Positions 49,373-57,043 of a DNA stretch of 64,000 bases are shown piece after piece. The notes beneath the pieces were generated by a model. It did no database searches. It worked only from the letters and a program-made list of their open reading frames with translations, and was not told where the DNA came from. The stretch is taken from positions 1,984,001 to 2,048,000 of the forward strand of contig NZ_CP051515.1 of assembly GCF_012689525.1 (NCBI RefSeq). Direction: 5' to 3'. This DNA comes from Paraburkholderia aromaticivorans (GTDB lineage: Bacteria > Pseudomonadota > Gammaproteobacteria > Burkholderiales > Burkholderiaceae). The position numbers and the translations under genes are program-made. The stretch's first letter is position 1; the number at the start of each line of letters is the position of its first letter.

Positions 49373-49397
49373 GAGCGGCAAGGCCCGCGTGCCGCTC
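49373..49397. terminator. Hairpin between the convergent PilZ and chlD genes
   Basis: An 8-bp stem GAGCGGCA/TGCCGCTC with a 9-base loop lies just after the PilZ stop and reaches the chlD stop. No T tract is present, so it may work as a weak terminator for both genes. Confidence 0.45.
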
Positions 49398-50079
49398 AGC
49401 CCATCACTATCAGTTCTTCTGGCGTGAAACGCCGCGCGCCCCACGCATCGGCGAGCACTTCGCAGCGGCCCAGCCGGATCGCCTCGCGCTCGAAATCGAC
49501 GAACACCACTTCGTCCGCATCCAGCGGCCGCGCCGGCATGTCACGCGTGCGGCCATCGGTCAGAATCCACAACCAGCGTTGCTGCCCGGGCTTGCGACGC
49601 GCGCTGCGATCCAGCAGTTGGGATGCACGCTGAACGCCTGCGGCCAGCGGTGTGCCGCCTCCGCCGCCCACTGGCCTCAGCCACTGCTCGTTCCACCAGC
49701 GCGGCACAGCGGGACCGAAACGCACATCCGCACCAGTGCCACCGAAACAGACCAGCGCCGCCTCGGCACGCGCCGCGCTCGCGCGGTCGAACAAGGCGAT
49801 CAGCAATCCCTTGGCGAGCGCAAGGCGCTGCCCGGCCAGCATGGAACCGGAGCAATCGAGCACGAAGCAATGCAGCACGCCGCCACGCGGCGCTTCGCGC
49901 ATGAAACGCAGATGCTCGGCGCGCAGCGCGTTCTGTCGCATCGCGGCGAGTGTCGGCGGCCAGTCGATGCGCTTGCCCGGTTGCCCGCGCAAGCGCCCGC
50001 GCGCATCTGCGCCAGCGCCTTGAAACCATCGAAAACCGCTGCGCGAGTCAGCGGCGGCGCCCTTCCGATGGCTCAGCGT
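49396..50079 (-). CDS. Cobaltochelatase vWA (ChlD C-terminal) part, read in the -1 frame after the AAA+ part
   Basis: About 227 residues in frame -1 relative to the upstream AAA+ gene. The vWA domain has the MIDAS motif HCFVLDCSGSML (DxSxS), a Thr in GGGGGTPLAAGV and the Asp in WILTDGRTRD. The upstream part RGRLRGQPGKRIDWPPTLAAMRQN is typical of ChlD just before its vWA domain. The frame has no good start of its own: the only upstream start is a TTG at 50151, within the AAA+ gene. The two frames meet at an A7 run (50079-50085), so expression by -1 frameshift is the simplest account. It would form the medium (D) subunit for cobalt insertion with CobN. Confidence 0.72.
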   Translation of the reverse strand, partial: TLSHRKGAAADSRSGFRWFQGAGADARGRLRGQPGKRIDWPPTLAAMRQNALRAEHLRFMREAPRGGVLHCFVLDCSGSMLAGQRLALAKGLLIALFDRASAARAEAALVCFGGTGADVRFGPAVPRWWNEQWLRPVGGGGGTPLAAGVQRASQLLDRSARRKPGQQRWLWILTDGRTRDMPARPLDADEVVFVDFEREAIRLGRCEVLADAWGARRFTPEELIVMG

Positions 50080-51143
50080 TTTTTTACGTTCAGTGGAATG
50101 ACGCCTTTGACGTGCGTGGTCGCGGCCGGCTCGGGCGCGAGGTAGCCCCAATCGCTCTCGCCGGCAGCCGCGGCCGGCGGCGCATTGCCTTCCGCGGATG
50201 AAGAGCGGCTATCGGAAGAAGCCTCCCGCTCGCCGTCACTCTCACGCGCATCACCTGCCGCCGACGACTCGCGAACCTGCCGCCGATGAGCCAACACCGC
50301 CTCAGCCACCCGATCGACATGCTCCGCCGTCACCGCGGCCGCCTGTTCGAGCGCCGCCAACGCACGCGCCGCGCGCAGCATCACGAGATCGGCGCGCAAA
50401 CCATCCACGGCGGCGTCGATGCACAGCGCGCTCACATGCGCATGCACGGCGTCATCGAACGCGAGTTGCGGCAACCTGCCGCGCGCCGCTCGAATCCGCT
50501 CGACATGAGCCGCCTGCTGCTGCGCATAGCCCGCACGAAAACCCTGCGGATCGAGATCGAACGCCAGCCGCGCTTTCACTATCGCCTGACGCACACGCGG
50601 CTCGAAACAGTTCTGCAACTCGACCATCAAACCGAAACGATCGATCAATTGCGGCCGCAGTTCGCCCTCTTCAGGGTTCATCGTGCCGATCAGCACGAAG
50701 CTCGCGTCGTGGCTATGCGATACGCCATCGCGCTCGACGGTATTCACGCCGCTAGCCGCCGCGTCGAGCAAGGCATCGACGAGCGCGTCGGGCAGCAGAT
50801 TGACTTCGTCCACATACAGCACGCCGCGGTGCGCTTTCGCGAGCAGACCGGGCGAGAAGCGCACCGAACCGTCGCGCAACACGGTTTCGATATCGAGCGT
50901 GCCGATCAAGCGATCTTCGCTGGCGCCAAGCGGCAGATTCACCAGTTGCCCTTCCGACAGCAACTCAGCCAGCGCGCGCGCCGCGGTCGACTTCGCCGTG
51001 CCACGTGGCCCGGTGACCAGCACGCCGCTTAAGCCCGGATCGATGGCGGCCAGCAGTAGCGCCTGCTGCAACGGCGCCTGGCCGATCAGCGCGGCAAAGG
51101 GAAAAACGGGCCGCGCGTTGGCCGCACTCATCGCTGGATTCAT
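50073..51143 (-). CDS. Cobaltochelatase AAA+ subunit (ChlI-like), first part of ChlD
   Basis: A 356-residue AAA+ ATPase of magnesium-chelatase I type: Walker A TGPRGTAKST, SEDRLIGTLDIE, Walker B VLYVDEVNLLPD, sensor FVLIGTMNPEEGELRPQLIDRFG. The C-terminus, from about 310, is a low-complexity acidic/Ser-rich linker (ESDGEREASSDSRSSSAEGN) like the linker between the AAA+ and vWA domains of ChlD. It overlaps the cobN stop as ATGA. It ends in GTA AAA AAA CGC TGA, directly at the A7 slippery run. Termination here gives the small subunit; -1 shifting would give a ~582-residue ChlD. It replaces CobS/CobT in this organism's cobaltochelatase. Confidence 0.8.
   Translation of the reverse strand: MNPAMSAANARPVFPFAALIGQAPLQQALLLAAIDPGLSGVLVTGPRGTAKSTAARALAELLSEGQLVNLPLGASEDRLIGTLDIETVLRDGSVRFSPGLLAKAHRGVLYVDEVNLLPDALVDALLDAAASGVNTVERDGVSHSHDASFVLIGTMNPEEGELRPQLIDRFGLMVELQNCFEPRVRQAIVKARLAFDLDPQGFRAGYAQQQAAHVERIRAARGRLPQLAFDDAVHAHVSALCIDAAVDGLRADLVMLRAARALAALEQAAAVTAEHVDRVAEAVLAHRRQVRESSAAGDARESDGEREASSDSRSSSAEGNAPPAAAAGESDWGYLAPEPAATTHVKGVIPLNVKKR
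50079..50085 (-). promoter_or_regulatory. Candidate programmed -1 ribosomal frameshift site in chlD
   Basis: Seven A residues on the minus strand (codons GTA AAA AAA, then CGC TGA). Slipping back one base continues the reading as ACG CTG AGC CAT in the vWA frame, which has no start of its own. The stop TGA is 4 bases after the run. A possible stimulating stem-loop lies downstream (CCGCTG/CAGCGG, about 25-45 bases away) and AAAGG about 18 bases upstream. Confidence 0.65.
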
Positions 51144-54100
51144 GTTTGCATTCCTTCGATCTGCTGCTCGCTCGCAAGCAGATGCTGTTCGACTTGCGCG
51201 CGATAGTCGCCGGGCGCCTGCCACAAACCGCGCTGCATGGCTTCGAGCAAACGCTCGCAGATCGAATGCAACGCGTGAGGGTTGTGCCGCTGCAAGAACT
51301 CGCGGGTGTCCGCGTCGTTCAAATAAGCATCCGTCACGAGCGCATATTGATGATCCGCGATCACGCGCGCGGTCGCGTCGTAACCATACAGATAGTCGAC
51401 GGTCGCAGCGATTTCCGCCGCGCCCTTGTAGCCGTGACGCTTCACGCCATCGAGCCATTTCGGATTGACCACGCGCGAGCGGATCACGCGCGCGATCTCC
51501 TCATGCAGCGTGCGCACGCGCGGCGCGGCCGGATTGCTGTGGTCGGCGTGATACACACTCGGCTGATCGCCGGCCAGATGCCGCACCGCGGCGACCATGC
51601 CGCCCTGGAACTGGTAGTAATCGTTCGAATCGAGCAAGTCGTGTTCGCGGTTGTCCTGGTTCTGCAGCACCACGTCCATTGCCGCGAGGCGCGTGCCGAA
51701 CGCGTGACGCGCCTCTTCGCCCGCGCTCTTTTGCGTGTATGCGTAGCCGCCCCACGCCTGATACGCGTTCGCGAGATCGGCGTCGGTCTGCCATTGCTGC
51801 GAGTCGATCATGTCCTGCAGACCCGCGCCGTAAGCGCCGGGCCGCGCGCTGAACACGCGCCAGCCGGCGCGCTTGCGCGCTTCGGCGGCGTCCATGCCGC
51901 GCGCGATCAGCGCATCGCGCTCGCGCAGCACGCGTGCGCGAATCGGATTCAGGTCCTCGGGTTCGTCGAGTTCGGCGACGGCTTGCACGGCGGCGTCGAA
52001 TAAATGCATGACGTTGGCGAAGGCGTCGCGGAAGAAACCGGACACTCGCAAGGTGACATCGATACGCGGCCGGTCGAACACCTCGATCGGCATGATTTCA
52101 AAATCGGTCACGCGATGGCTGCCCGGTGCCCACTTCGGCCGCACGCCGAGCAACGCGAGCGCCTGGGCGATATCGTCGCCACCCGTGCGCATGGTCGCGG
52201 TGCCCCAAACGGACAGACCGATGGCGCGCGGATAGTCGCCCTTCTCCTGCAAATGCCGTTCGATCAGTTGCTGGGCGGATTTCAAGCCGAGCGACCAGGC
52301 GGCTTGCGTGGGAACCGCGCGCGTGTCGACCGAATAGAAGTTGCGGCCGGTGGGCAGCACGTCGGGCCGGCCACGCGATGGCGAACCGCTCGGTCCAGGC
52401 GGCACGAAACGCCCTTCGAGGCCACGCTTTAGCTGAAGCATTTCCTGCGGGCCGCAGGCGTCGAGCCGCGGCAGTACGTCGTCACGCAGACGCTCGATCA
52501 CTTGCTCCGCTTGCGGCAAGCTAACCGCAAGAAACGGCGCTGCTGATGCGTCCGTTCGATCGCCGCACACGTCTCGCAGCAACTCGGCCGCCAGCAACTC
52601 CAGCCGTTCGCGCGTATCGCCGCAATGCCGCCACGGCGCATCGCTCACACGCTGCAGCGCATCGGGACGCGGCCCGTCCCACACCGCCGACCAATCCACC
52701 GACAACGGATCGAACAGATGATCCATCTTCAGATCACGCGCCAATGCATCGATCAACCCGGCCTTGCCGCCTTGCCCATCGCCGACAGGAAAGCGTCCCA
52801 ACGCCAGCAACGTATCGCGCCGCTGCACGCCATCAGGCGATTGCCCAAACGTATGCAAGCCATCGCGAATCTGCGCTTCCTTCAACTCGCACAGCCACGC
52901 ATCGACGCGCGTGAGCAGCGCGTCTTCATCATCCTGCCCGTTCGGCGCCGCAAGACTCAGTTCCTCATGCAACTTATGTTCGACGATGGTCGCCAGAATC
53001 GTGCGCCGCAACAGCTTCGAGCGGCGCGGATCGACCATCAACGCTTCATAGTATTCATCGACCTGGCGCTCCAGGTCCTGCAACGGTCCGTAACTTTCGG
53101 CACGCGTGAGCGGCGGCATCAGGTGATCGATAATGACGGCCTGCGTACGGCGTTTCGCCTGGCTGCCCTCGCCCGGATCGTTGACGATGAACGGATACAG
53201 ATGCGGCATCGGCCCAAGAATCAGATCGGGCCAGCAGGTATCGCTCAACGCGACGCTCTTGCCGGGCAGCCATTCGAGATTACCGTGCTTGCCGACATGC
53301 ACGACCGCGTCGATGCCGAACTGGTGACGCAACCAGAAATAGAACGCCAGATACGCATGCGGCGGCACCAGCTCGGCGTCGTGATAACTCGCGTAATCGC
53401 CCTGCTCGCGCGAACGCGACGGTTGAATGCCGACGAACACCTGCCCGCAACGCCAGCCCGCGATCATGAAACGGCCGCGTCGCAGCGTCGGATCCTGGTC
53501 GGGCGTGCCCCAACGCGCGTTCAGCGCCTGGCGCGTTTCGGCGGGCAAGGCGTTGAAGTGCGCGAGATAGTCGTCGAGCGCGAGGCTTTGCAGCGCGGGA
53601 CGCAGATCGCGCACGACCGGATCGTTGGTCACGCCTTCGGTGAGCTTTTTCAGCAGCGCGCCGCCGTCCGTGGGCAAGTCGGCGAGACGATAACCTTCGT
53701 CGCGCAGCATCGACAGAATGCCGACCACCGAGGCCGGCGTATCGAGTCCCACGCCGTTGCCGATGCGCCCTTCGCTCATCGGATAGTTGGCGAGGATCAG
53801 CGCGAGTTTCTTGTCCGCGTTATCGAGTGAACGCAGACGGCACCAGCGTCGGCTCAGCTCGGCGAGAAAACGCACCCGCTCGGCGTCCGGCTGATAACGC
53901 ACCACATCGACCTGAGTGTGCGGACAACGGTACGCGAGGCCCTTGAAACTGATCGCGCGCGTGATGATGCGGCCATCCACTTCCGGCAGCGCGATATGCA
54001 TGGCGATATCGCGCGAATTGAGACCCTGATTGTCCTTGACCCAATCCTCGCGGTTGCCGCCGCTCAGGATCACCTGAAACACCGGCGCGTCGCCGGCGAG

Positions 54101-54946
54101 CGCGAGCGGCTCGGGGTCGTCGATTGCGGACGCGGCGAACGCGGTCGTGTTCAGCACCAGCGCGACATCGTGCTGCGCGCACAGCGATTGCACGACGTCG
54201 CGGCTCATCGCATCTTTCAGAGAGGTAATCGCGATCGGCAGCGGATTCAGACCTTGCGATTCGAGCGCGTCGATCAGCGCATCGAACACGGCCGTATTGG
54301 CCGCCTGCAGATGCGCCTTGTAGAACAGGATCGCCGCGACCGGCGCGTGCTGTTGCCAACGCGCCTGCCAGTCGGCCATGGTCGGCGTGTCGCGTTCGGG
54401 ATGGTAAAGCGTCGCGGCCGGCAACGCGCGCGGCGGCGCGGGCTCACGTCCCCAGCCAAAGGCGCGGTGCGCGATGCAGCGCAGAAACGCCTCGGCATTT
54501 TGCGGGCCGCCTTCACGCAGATAGCGCCAGAGCTGATGGCACAGATCGGGGCTCGCAGTGCTACGCGCGAGCAGATTCGGATCTTCCTGCAGATCGCCGG
54601 AGAACATCGCGAGCGTCTGCTGCTTGCGCTCAGCGAGCGCCACCACCTGCTCAATGCCGTAAGGCCAATACGCCTCGCCACCGAGGTGATCGACCACCAC
54701 CACGCGTGCATGCTGCAAGACGTCTTCGAGATAAAAATCCACCGACGCCGATTGCCGCAAATACGTGACGTTCGCGAGCCGTACGCTCGGGAAGCCTTCA
54801 CCGAGCCGCGGAAAAACGCTCGCCAGCAGCGACAGCGTGGTATCGGCGGAACTGAGCACCACGATATCCGCGGGCTGCTGATCGATACGGATCACGCCTT
54901 GCGTATCGTCGACAAAACCGCCCGGCGTGGTGCGCAGCAGATGCAT
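51140..54946 (-). CDS. cobN: Cobaltochelatase large subunit CobN
   Basis: A 1268-residue protein of the CobN/BchH family. Conserved stretches include DVALVLNTTAFAAS, ILANYPMSEGRIGNGVGLDTPASVVGILSMLRDEGYRL, FGIDAVVHVGKHGNLEWLPGKSVALSDTCWPDLILGPMPHLYPFIVNDPGEGSQAKRR and MRTGGDDIAQALALLGVRPKWAPGSHRVTDFEIMPIEVFDRPRIDVTLRVSGFFRDAF. It binds hydrogenobyrinate a,c-diamide and takes Co2+ in the aerobic cobalamin pathway, with ATP hydrolysis by partner AAA+/vWA subunits. Its stop overlaps the chlD start as ATGA, and it lies 6 bp after the cobW stop. Confidence 0.94.
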   Translation of the reverse strand: MHLLRTTPGGFVDDTQGVIRIDQQPADIVVLSSADTTLSLLASVFPRLGEGFPSVRLANVTYLRQSASVDFYLEDVLQHARVVVVDHLGGEAYWPYGIEQVVALAERKQQTLAMFSGDLQEDPNLLARSTASPDLCHQLWRYLREGGPQNAEAFLRCIAHRAFGWGREPAPPRALPAATLYHPERDTPTMADWQARWQQHAPVAAILFYKAHLQAANTAVFDALIDALESQGLNPLPIAITSLKDAMSRDVVQSLCAQHDVALVLNTTAFAASAIDDPEPLALAGDAPVFQVILSGGNREDWVKDNQGLNSRDIAMHIALPEVDGRIITRAISFKGLAYRCPHTQVDVVRYQPDAERVRFLAELSRRWCRLRSLDNADKKLALILANYPMSEGRIGNGVGLDTPASVVGILSMLRDEGYRLADLPTDGGALLKKLTEGVTNDPVVRDLRPALQSLALDDYLAHFNALPAETRQALNARWGTPDQDPTLRRGRFMIAGWRCGQVFVGIQPSRSREQGDYASYHDAELVPPHAYLAFYFWLRHQFGIDAVVHVGKHGNLEWLPGKSVALSDTCWPDLILGPMPHLYPFIVNDPGEGSQAKRRTQAVIIDHLMPPLTRAESYGPLQDLERQVDEYYEALMVDPRRSKLLRRTILATIVEHKLHEELSLAAPNGQDDEDALLTRVDAWLCELKEAQIRDGLHTFGQSPDGVQRRDTLLALGRFPVGDGQGGKAGLIDALARDLKMDHLFDPLSVDWSAVWDGPRPDALQRVSDAPWRHCGDTRERLELLAAELLRDVCGDRTDASAAPFLAVSLPQAEQVIERLRDDVLPRLDACGPQEMLQLKRGLEGRFVPPGPSGSPSRGRPDVLPTGRNFYSVDTRAVPTQAAWSLGLKSAQQLIERHLQEKGDYPRAIGLSVWGTATMRTGGDDIAQALALLGVRPKWAPGSHRVTDFEIMPIEVFDRPRIDVTLRVSGFFRDAFANVMHLFDAAVQAVAELDEPEDLNPIRARVLRERDALIARGMDAAEARKRAGWRVFSARPGAYGAGLQDMIDSQQWQTDADLANAYQAWGGYAYTQKSAGEEARHAFGTRLAAMDVVLQNQDNREHDLLDSNDYYQFQGGMVAAVRHLAGDQPSVYHADHSNPAAPRVRTLHEEIARVIRSRVVNPKWLDGVKRHGYKGAAEIAATVDYLYGYDATARVIADHQYALVTDAYLNDADTREFLQRHNPHALHSICERLLEAMQRGLWQAPGDYRAQVEQHLLASEQQIEGMQT

Positions 54947-54952
54947 GAGCGC

Positions 54953-56044
54953 TTACGCCTGTTGCGTTTCGACGCTCGACGGCACGCCGAGCGCCGCGTC
55001 GAACGCACGCTGCAGCGCGGGCTGATCGAGGTCTTCACCGATCAGCACGAAGCGGCTCGGGCCGCTTTCGCCGGCCTGCCAGCGTCGATCGAAATAGCTG
55101 TCGAAGCGGCGCCCGACGCCTTGAATCACCAGACGCATCGCCGCGCCCGGCAGCGCCGCGAAACCTTTGACGCGGTAGATCGTGTTGGTTTCGACGAGCT
55201 GTTGCAGCGCGGCGATCACCGCCTCGCGCGACGACGCGTTCGCCTGCACGACCACCGAGTCGAACTCGTCGTGATGGTGGTCGGCGTCGTCGGCGGAACC
55301 GTGGTGATCGTGGCGCAAGTGGATCGACTCTTCCGACGCCGCTTCGAGGCACAGCAACGTATGCAGATCGAGCTGGCCCTTGTGCGCGCGCACGATCTTC
55401 ACTTGCGGCGGAATTTCTTCGCGGATCGAAATTTCAACCGCGCTTTGCTGCGCGTCGTCGAGCAAATCCGTCTTGTTCAGAATCACCAGATCGGCAGCCG
55501 ACAACTGGTCTTCAAACAATTCGTGCAACGGCGACTCGTGATCGAGATTCGGATCGGCCTTGCGCTGCGCATCCACGGCGATCGGATTGTCGGCGAACTG
55601 ACCGCTTGCCGCGGCCGGGCCGTCCACCACGGTGACCACGGCATCCACGGTGAAACTGTTCTTGATCTGCGGCCAGTTGAACGCCTGCACCAGCGGCTTC
55701 GGCAGCGCGAGCCCCGACGTCTCGATCAGCACGTGATCGATCTGGTCGCGGCGCTCCACGAGTTTTTCCATCACCGGAAAAAACTCTTCCTGCACGGTGC
55801 AGCACAGGCAGCCATTCGCGAGTTCATACAGTTGACCTTCGGTTTCGACGCCGTTTTCATCGCAACCGATGCCGCAACCCTTGAGGATTTCCCCGTCGAT
55901 GCCGAGCTCGCCGAACTCGTTGACGATCACCGCGATGCGCTTGCCGCCCGCATGCTGAAGAATATGCCGCAGCAGCGTGGTCTTGCCGCTGCCGAGAAAG
56001 CCCGTGACGATGGTGACGGGGATCTTGCGCATTTGAGTTTGCAT
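54953..56044 (-). CDS. cobW: Cobalamin biosynthesis GTPase CobW (COG0523)
   Basis: About 363 residues from ATG 56044 (Mets at 56056 and 56032 are alternatives). The G1 loop is [11 protein letters not shown]. The metal motif is GCLCCTV (CxCC). A switch/Walker [12 protein letters not shown] and NKTDLL follow. A long His/Asp-rich loop ([19 protein letters not shown], about 240-258) is present, typical of CobW. The C-terminal CobW domain includes [13 protein letters not shown]. It is a metal-chaperone GTPase believed to supply Co2+ to cobaltochelatase; the next gene is cobN, 6 bp away. A cobalamin riboswitch lies 200 bp upstream, so expression should fall when B12 is ample. Confidence 0.92.
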
Positions 56045-56249
56045 CGTGAGGTCCATCCGTAGGAGTTGCACGTGCACGCCGGCGTGTTTGTCTATCTGTC
56101 TGCGCGCAATGGCAAACGGAGCACACGCCCGATGAGCCACGACGATAACAAAACACGGGGACGAACGACGGCGTTGCCGCGACAACAGAAAAACAGAAAA
56201 CGGGAATGAGATCATGAACGCAGCGCCGCATCCCCGCGGCGTTCGTTCT
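56045..56249 (-). other. 5' leader between riboswitch and cobW
   Basis: About 205 bases between the riboswitch and the cobW start. The stretch CCGAATACG... through GTTGTCGCG is unremarkable. No gene is seen; it should carry the expression platform. Confidence 0.4.
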
Positions 56250-56509
56250 TCGTATTCTGGCCGGTATCCGGGCTGGCGAAAGCGCCGCTTCCCCTTCCCG
56301 GGCGAGTGGTTTCTCGCCCAGTGGGTAATATGCCGACGCGGCCTTGCGCGTGGACATCGAAGCCGGCTCCGCGGCGCTAAAGCTCTGAACTTAGCACCAC
56401 ATTTCGCTTACCGTTGCGGGGGCAGCACAGGTTGACCCGATCCATGGCAGGCAGGCACCCTGTTTCCCGTTTAACTGCATGCGCACGAGCGCGCACACGA
56501 GCACCAAAG
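56250..56509 (-). promoter_or_regulatory. Cobalamin riboswitch controlling cobW-cobN-chlD
   Basis: The minus strand shows the class signature: TTTGGTGC at the 5' end, then TTAAACGGGAAACAGGGTGCC, GCTGCCCCCGCAACGGTAAG, ACTGGGCGAG, GGGAAGGGGAAGCGGC and GCCAGCCCGGATACCGGCC at the 3' end. This includes the conserved B12-box. It lies upstream of cobW on the same strand and would repress that operon in the presence of adenosylcobalamin. Confidence 0.9.
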
Positions 56510-56604
56510 TGCGTGCGAGTGTAGGCCCGCGGCCCGGTGCCGTCAAGGAAACGCAAGCCGCAAGCGCTTATCGGGCGGGGCGCCATGTGCTATCGTATGC
56601 GCGC

Positions 56605-56826
56605 GTTTGGTGCCCGCACATGCATTCGCGTGTGCAGTTAAACGGGAAACAGGCAGCGCTCTGTGCGCTCAATCTGTGCTGTCCCCGCAACGGTAAGCGA
56701 CCTGCGGCGCGATGTTGAATCGACTTGCGCCGCGCATGCGTTTTTTATGCCACTGTCCGGCACATTTCATCGAATGCGGACGGGAAGGCAAAGCGCATGA
56801 GGCCGCCAGCCCGGATACCGGCCAGA
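56605..56826 (+). promoter_or_regulatory. Cobalamin riboswitch controlling cobA-cobE-cobO-cobB-bluB
   Basis: The plus strand shows TTTGGTGCCCGC, then GTTAAACGGGAAACAGG, GCTGTCCCCGCAACGGTAAG, CCACTGTCCGG, GGGAAGGCAAAG and GCCAGCCCGGATACCGGCC. It points to the cobA-type gene about 220 bp downstream. Several core segments are identical to the divergent riboswitch on the other strand. Confidence 0.9.
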
Positions 56827-57043
56827 CGCGGAGGTGGCGAACGTCACGCCGCCGGACGCCGGAATCCGCGAGGGACGGATGTGATGGCGCTGAAGCACGA
56901 CGAAGTGTGTCCGCGTAGGCGGGTTCCGTCTGGAATCGCTACGAGCCGCACATGGCGCCGTGCCTGAATCCGTAGCACTGCATGACCCCAAAGTCCGCCG
57001 TCTGGCGACCCTTCGCGCTTCATCCCTTCCTGCTCGTCACGAC
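56827..57043 (+). other. 5' leader between riboswitch and cobA
   Basis: About 217 bases follow the riboswitch. The first ~100 bases are GC-rich and could fold to form the expression platform. Short open frames here have no convincing similarity to anything. Confidence 0.4.

Follow-up and report, generated by a model that had tools for sequence, protein, structure and literature searches.

The sequence that we analysed is a stretch of 64,000 nt from Paraburkholderia aromaticivorans (assembly GCF_012689525.1, contig NZ_CP051515.1, positions 1,984,001–2,048,000). We refer to this whole stretch as the window, and all positions are counted within it. On the minus strand, it contains a cobalamin riboswitch followed by cobW, cobN and chlD, in that order. 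The riboswitch aptamer (56242–56523) matched the Rfam family RF00174 at 60.2 bits (cut-off 31.5). The cobW gene (54953–56089; TIGR02475, 487 bits, cut-off 332) has a provisional start codon, its ORF opening at 56215, and is followed by cobN, which encodes the large subunit of cobaltochelatase (51140–54946; TIGR02257, 1605 bits, cut-off 822). The ATG of chlD overlaps the stop codon of cobN as ATGA, so translation of the two genes is probably coupled. A second cobalamin riboswitch (56591–56840) lies on the plus strand, back to back with the first and divergent from it. It faces genes for uroporphyrinogen-III methyltransferase, cob(I)yrinic acid adenosyltransferase, CobB and BluB, which places the locus in the setting of B12 synthesis.

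The 0 frame of chlD runs from the ATG at 51143 to a TGA at 50075–50073 on the minus strand (50073–51143, within an ORF of 50073–51458). Its predicted product is a ChlI-like AAA+ protein of 356 residues, a small chelatase subunit, with Mg_chelatase and AAA_lid_2 domains and a match to ChlI structures at E = 2e-82. As the initial annotation had stated, this frame ends GTA AAA AAA CGC TGA. The stop codon lies 3 nt past a slippery heptamer, A_AAA_AAA (50079–50085, minus strand); runs of seven A's or seven T's occur only three times in the whole window. A slip of one base back on this run leads, again as claimed, straight into a second frame, entered at the codon at 50079 and open until a stop at 49396. 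This −1 frame (49396–50079, minus strand) encodes a linker and the vWA domain of a medium subunit, with the MIDAS motif DCSGSM starting near 49857. The vWA part matched VWA_2 (E = 1e-8) and the structure 2x31 (E = 4e-13), a 60 kDa magnesium-chelatase subunit chain that we take to be BchD. Scored separately against TIGR02442, a model of single-frame putative cobaltochelatases, the two halves of chlD reached 385 and 79 bits (cut-off 779), and neither half matched the CobS and CobT models TIGR01650 and TIGR01651 at E 0.001. Besides chlD, no separate strong ChlI-like gene was found in the genome of P. aromaticivorans.

The initial annotation had proposed a comparison of the A7 run and the frame relation across related cobN loci. 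We searched 144 genomes of the genus; 134 contained a match to the vWA part, and these yielded 132 junctions. Two loci that stop short of the junction (L165 and L225) and two that consist of a 39-residue remnant (L164 and L257) were not counted. Another 77 named loci mostly duplicate genomes already in the set and were not treated as independent. The heptamer was retained as A_AAA_AAR in 131 of the 132 junctions, reading A_AAA_AAA in 129 and A_AAA_AAG in two. The run of A's was seven long in 127 of the 132 junctions, eight in two, and six followed by a G in two. The single broken heptamer, a run of six, was found in L061 (genome G010). Since its near relative L057 has seven A's with almost identical flanks, the simplest view is that the run in L061 is likely an assembly error, the alternative being a recent loss. 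The vWA frame was −1 relative to the AAA+ frame in 130 of the 132 junctions; the exceptions were L061 and L163, in which N's precede the vWA match and make the frame relation unreadable. In the first set of loci, the −1 relation recurred in 109 of 110 (AAAAAAA in 108, AAAAAAG in one), which rules out a sequencing error in the A7 run of the window. In the second set, it was present in 41 of 42 genus loci.

The heptamer extends beyond the genus. Other genera of the family carry AAAAAAA in 23 and AAAAAAG in one of 24 loci, and other families of the class carry AAAAAAA in one and AAAAAAG in three of four loci; one distant locus has a run of ten A's. A search of a plasmid collection returned 36 records at 60–90% identity. 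Single-frame chlD genes are present in distant relatives, both in other families of the class (L170 and L171) and in the same family (L177 and L178). In a phylogeny of 54 AAA+ proteins, the heptamer's final base switched between A and G at least five times, always within A_AAA_AAR; this tree was a quick build with long branches among outgroup loci, and it excludes L061. Outside the heptamer, the 0 frames of 109 loci encode lysine as AAG 272 times and as AAA 210 times, so codon bias alone fails to yield two fixed AAA AAR codons. AAA is the commoner codon in the AAA+ gene of the window itself (five AAA, including both slippery codons, and one AAG), and the cobN gene of the window uses AAA six times and AAG 20 times.

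Substitution patterns indicate that the −1 frame is under purifying selection. Between the heptamer and the MIDAS motif, it is free of stop codons in all 109 loci compared, and the third frame contains a stop in 77 of the 109 (L061 excluded from both counts). Beyond the stems described below, 168 near pairs of sequences differ 800, 862 and 2190 times at codon positions 1, 2 and 3, respectively, in a count that omits L061 and six loci whose MIDAS the search pattern missed. In the 0 frame before the heptamer, differences at the third position numbered 32864, versus 20529 and 20831 at the other two. The loci L095–L098, from a single other genus of the family, have a vWA frame that stays open upstream for more than 1370 nt, across the AAA+ gene, probably by chance in GC-rich DNA.

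Alignment and folding revealed a two-stem RNA structure downstream of the heptamer. The outer stem, P1, begins after a spacer of 6 nt and pairs 50065–50072 with 50025–50032; it encloses an inner stem, P2, that pairs 50049–50055 with 50035–50041 (all minus strand). We evaluated the structure in 44 nonredundant junctions out of 110, each differing from the others at 5 or more of 60 bases, with L061 excluded; in L113 and L114 the outer stem is misplaced in the alignment. Standard pairs filled 90.5% of 651 cells, compared to a mean of 81.4% in shuffled alignments, which keep the relatedness of the rows and are judged against a structure drawn from the same sequences. When the 3′ arm was slid along, at most 63.5% were paired. 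Changes on both sides of a pair were seen in 72 cells, versus 21.4 after shuffling (44 rows, relatedness not removed), and affected 10 of the 15 pairs, a number matched by one of 500 shuffles. The paired percentage and the covariation score were each reached by none of 500 shuffles, again with relatedness not removed. Single-sequence folding gave z-scores of −1.5 to −3.9 in the seven junctions tested; for the window's own junction the value was a modest −1.97, with 7 of 200 shuffles folding as well. At one pair of P1 (17–79), the rows with A-U encode His and Trp (29 of 44) and those with G-C encode Arg and Arg (12 of 44), two rows being misaligned and one gapped. Because this exchange is nonsynonymous on both sides, selection seems to maintain the pairing itself. 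The switch at this pair requires at least one event on the tree, and the adjoining pair at least nine changes. Column counts in the alignment revealed no clear Shine-Dalgarno-like stimulator upstream of the heptamer. We considered an AAAGG-like stretch about 18 nt 5′ of the heptamer and rejected it as a stimulator: it is too distant, and in the 0 frame it codes for Lys-Gly.

The occurrence of this gene follows that of cobN. Both cobN and the vWA gene were present in 133 of the 144 genus genomes and neither in nine. The two discordant genomes are one in which cobN lies at a contig end (G128) and one in which cobN was not found and the 39-residue remnant of the vWA end is kept (G132; L164 and L257). 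In 156 of 160 loci, the tail of cobN is no more than 1500 nt upstream of the heptamer; by coordinates, the remaining four have cobN 1.4 to 2.8 kb ahead of the vWA match. The ATGA at the cobN stop codon is present in 128 loci. The initial annotation had further claimed that chlD replaces CobS/CobT for CobN. The phyletic pattern fits this claim, in which the replacement itself is an inferred step, but the P. aromaticivorans genome also has a CobS/CobT-like pair elsewhere. This pair (L120:7720–10442; C2:704719–707441) scored below the curated cut-offs: its CobS-like gene, which comes first, reached 524 bits (cut-off 558), and its CobT-like gene 300 bits (cut-off 759). It is not tied to cobN, lying instead near genes for sulfoacetaldehyde acetyltransferase (xsc) and phosphotransacetylase (pta), which belong to sulfonate catabolism. 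A CobS-like gene of this type was found (E 1e-60) in 54 of the 144 genus genomes, 51 of the 134 with cobN and three of the 10 without. We therefore rejected the pair as a regular partner of CobN; it could play a part-time role in serving CobN. The same genome has a second, weaker CobS/CobT-like pair (L121:5375–8364; 128 and 101 bits), near ORFs that we named by eye as oxidoreductase-like and transporter-like.

We considered whether the vWA domain might instead be a separate protein, made from an internal start codon or by ribosomes that reinitiate past the TGA. The initial annotation had held that the vWA frame lacks a start codon of its own in a suitable place. As far as the mere presence of start codons goes, this did not stand: the window has a TTG 66 nt before the A7 run and a TTG, two ATGs (one at +144 relative to the heptamer) and two GTGs between the run and the MIDAS motif. 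By a crude pattern, however, none of these is preceded by a Shine-Dalgarno-like sequence, and none is conserved. Position −66 has a start codon in 44 of 109 loci (TTG in 40, GTG in three, ATG in one; L061 excluded here and below), but in the window the TTG there shares bases with a Trp codon of the 0 frame, and this may account for its frequency. Start codons within −30 to +45 of the heptamer are present in 25 of the 109 loci. Conversely, 55 of the 109 lack any ATG, GTG or TTG in the part of the vWA frame that precedes the heptamer, 47 have no ATG ahead of the MIDAS motif, and one (L044) has no start codon of any kind ahead of it. Separate initiation also leaves the fixed A_AAA_AAR and the covarying stems unexplained, and we regard it as highly unlikely.

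The second frame might also be reached by slippage of RNA polymerase, rather than the ribosome, at the run of A's. Runs of more than seven A's have been implicated in transcriptional realignment in the accessible text of PMC3711429, and the runs of eight in two genus loci and of ten in the distant locus would suit such a process. Against it, the run has exactly seven A's in nearly all genus loci, and the two variants with six A's and a G retain the ribosomal heptamer while the homopolymer shortens. Moreover, a 6-nt spacer before a folded RNA is what one expects of ribosomal stimulators, for which the portion of PMC4066793 that we could consult gives 5–8 nt. Polymerase slippage thus seems very improbable. 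Least plausible of all, to the point of being almost negligible, is a pseudogene or sequencing error, with the CobS/CobT-like pair serving CobN. The presence of that pair in the same genome speaks for it; the retention of the heptamer across the genus and the excess of third-position differences in both frames speak against it, as does the occurrence of the CobS-like gene in 54 of the 144 genomes, three of which lack cobN.

The in-frame A_AAA_AAR, the stop codon 3 nt further on, the covarying structure 6 nt downstream and the purifying selection on the −1 frame together support what the initial annotation had proposed, namely that one chlD gene yields two chelatase subunits by −1 frameshifting. 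Judging from the sequence comparisons, we consider it very probable that this frameshifting chlD (fs-chlD) uses programmed −1 ribosomal frameshifting to supply both AAA+ subunits of the CobN cobaltochelatase; the occurrence of frameshifting, its rate and the roles of the subunits are what we infer. Ribosomes, probably coupled from cobN, would translate the AAA+ domain. Some of them, probably most, would read AAA AAA CGC and stop at the TGA, releasing the 356-residue ChlI-like small subunit. Others would be slowed by the two-stem structure, and two tRNA-Lys would re-pair one base back on A_AAA_AAA, as in the tRNA re-pairing model of −1 slippage, so that reading enters the vWA frame. The frameshift product, some 580 residues long, would be a ChlD-like medium subunit, and both subunits would join CobN for cobalt insertion in B12 synthesis. 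It is conceivable, though improbable, that the two-stem element in Burkholderiaceae acts as a regulated switch that tunes the ratio of small to medium subunit to the state of translation or to how much cobalt or corrinoid is available, as a second layer of control below the riboswitch. The one observation that bears on such a switch is that the outer stem is unusually well conserved.

A frameshifting chlD that serves cobN has already been published for this gene and group. Antonov et al. (2013) described 23 magnesium chelatase genes with −1 frameshifts as one cluster, drawn from six genera that include Burkholderia (PMC3711429). In the sections of that paper available to us, reporter cassettes of three cluster members gave 63, 40 and 10% frameshifting in E. 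coli, the 10% cassette having seven A's, and frameshift genes of this kind are said to have appeared in annotations as pairs of neighbouring genes. Kuznetsov et al. (2022) report, in the accessible part of their text, that fs-chlD supplies the cobN chelatase with both subunits; they cite Antonov 2020 (MBE 37:2268) (PMC9227772). The report of frameshifting chlD beside cobN that the initial annotation mentioned was thus located (PMC9227772 and its reference 16). Our addition is a deeper look at a single family: a two-stem stimulator that covaries and is fixed in position, a natural exchange of A and G in the heptamer and a near-perfect co-occurrence with cobN. Our literature search, to which most subscription journals were out of reach, found no publication on the Burkholderiaceae stimulator. 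As a cellular example in which a single gene yields two subunits of the same enzyme, by what we take to be frameshifting, the locus is a clean one, and its covarying stimulator and natural series from A_AAA_AAA to A_AAA_AAG ease direct testing.

With fs-chlD and the magnesium chelatase cluster as described in the available portions of these papers, the locus shares the overlapping AAA+ and vWA frames in −1 relation, the A_AAA_AAR heptamer, a downstream structure and, probably, the use with cobN; Burkholderia is one of the genera of the 2013 cluster. The linked cobN and the lack of a separate chlI, the latter examined in the P. aromaticivorans genome, correspond to the published stage 8 form (PMC9227772). 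A 2016 review states, in the part open to us, that A_AAA_AAR is under strong selection and that the sequence of the downstream structure is not strongly conserved (PMC5009743). In contrast to the latter statement, the outer stem here keeps both its position and its pairing to a high degree. Like CobNST, the predicted enzyme combines a CobN large subunit with an AAA+/vWA pair; unlike the separate cobS and cobT products, the pair is of the ChlI/ChlD type and comes from one gene. E. coli dnaX likewise has a slippery heptamer (A_AAA_AAG), a downstream stem-loop and two products that share an N-terminus and come from a single gene. The two systems differ in that chlD has no clear upstream Shine-Dalgarno-like stimulator, and in that the frameshift product is the shorter one in dnaX and would be the longer one in chlD.
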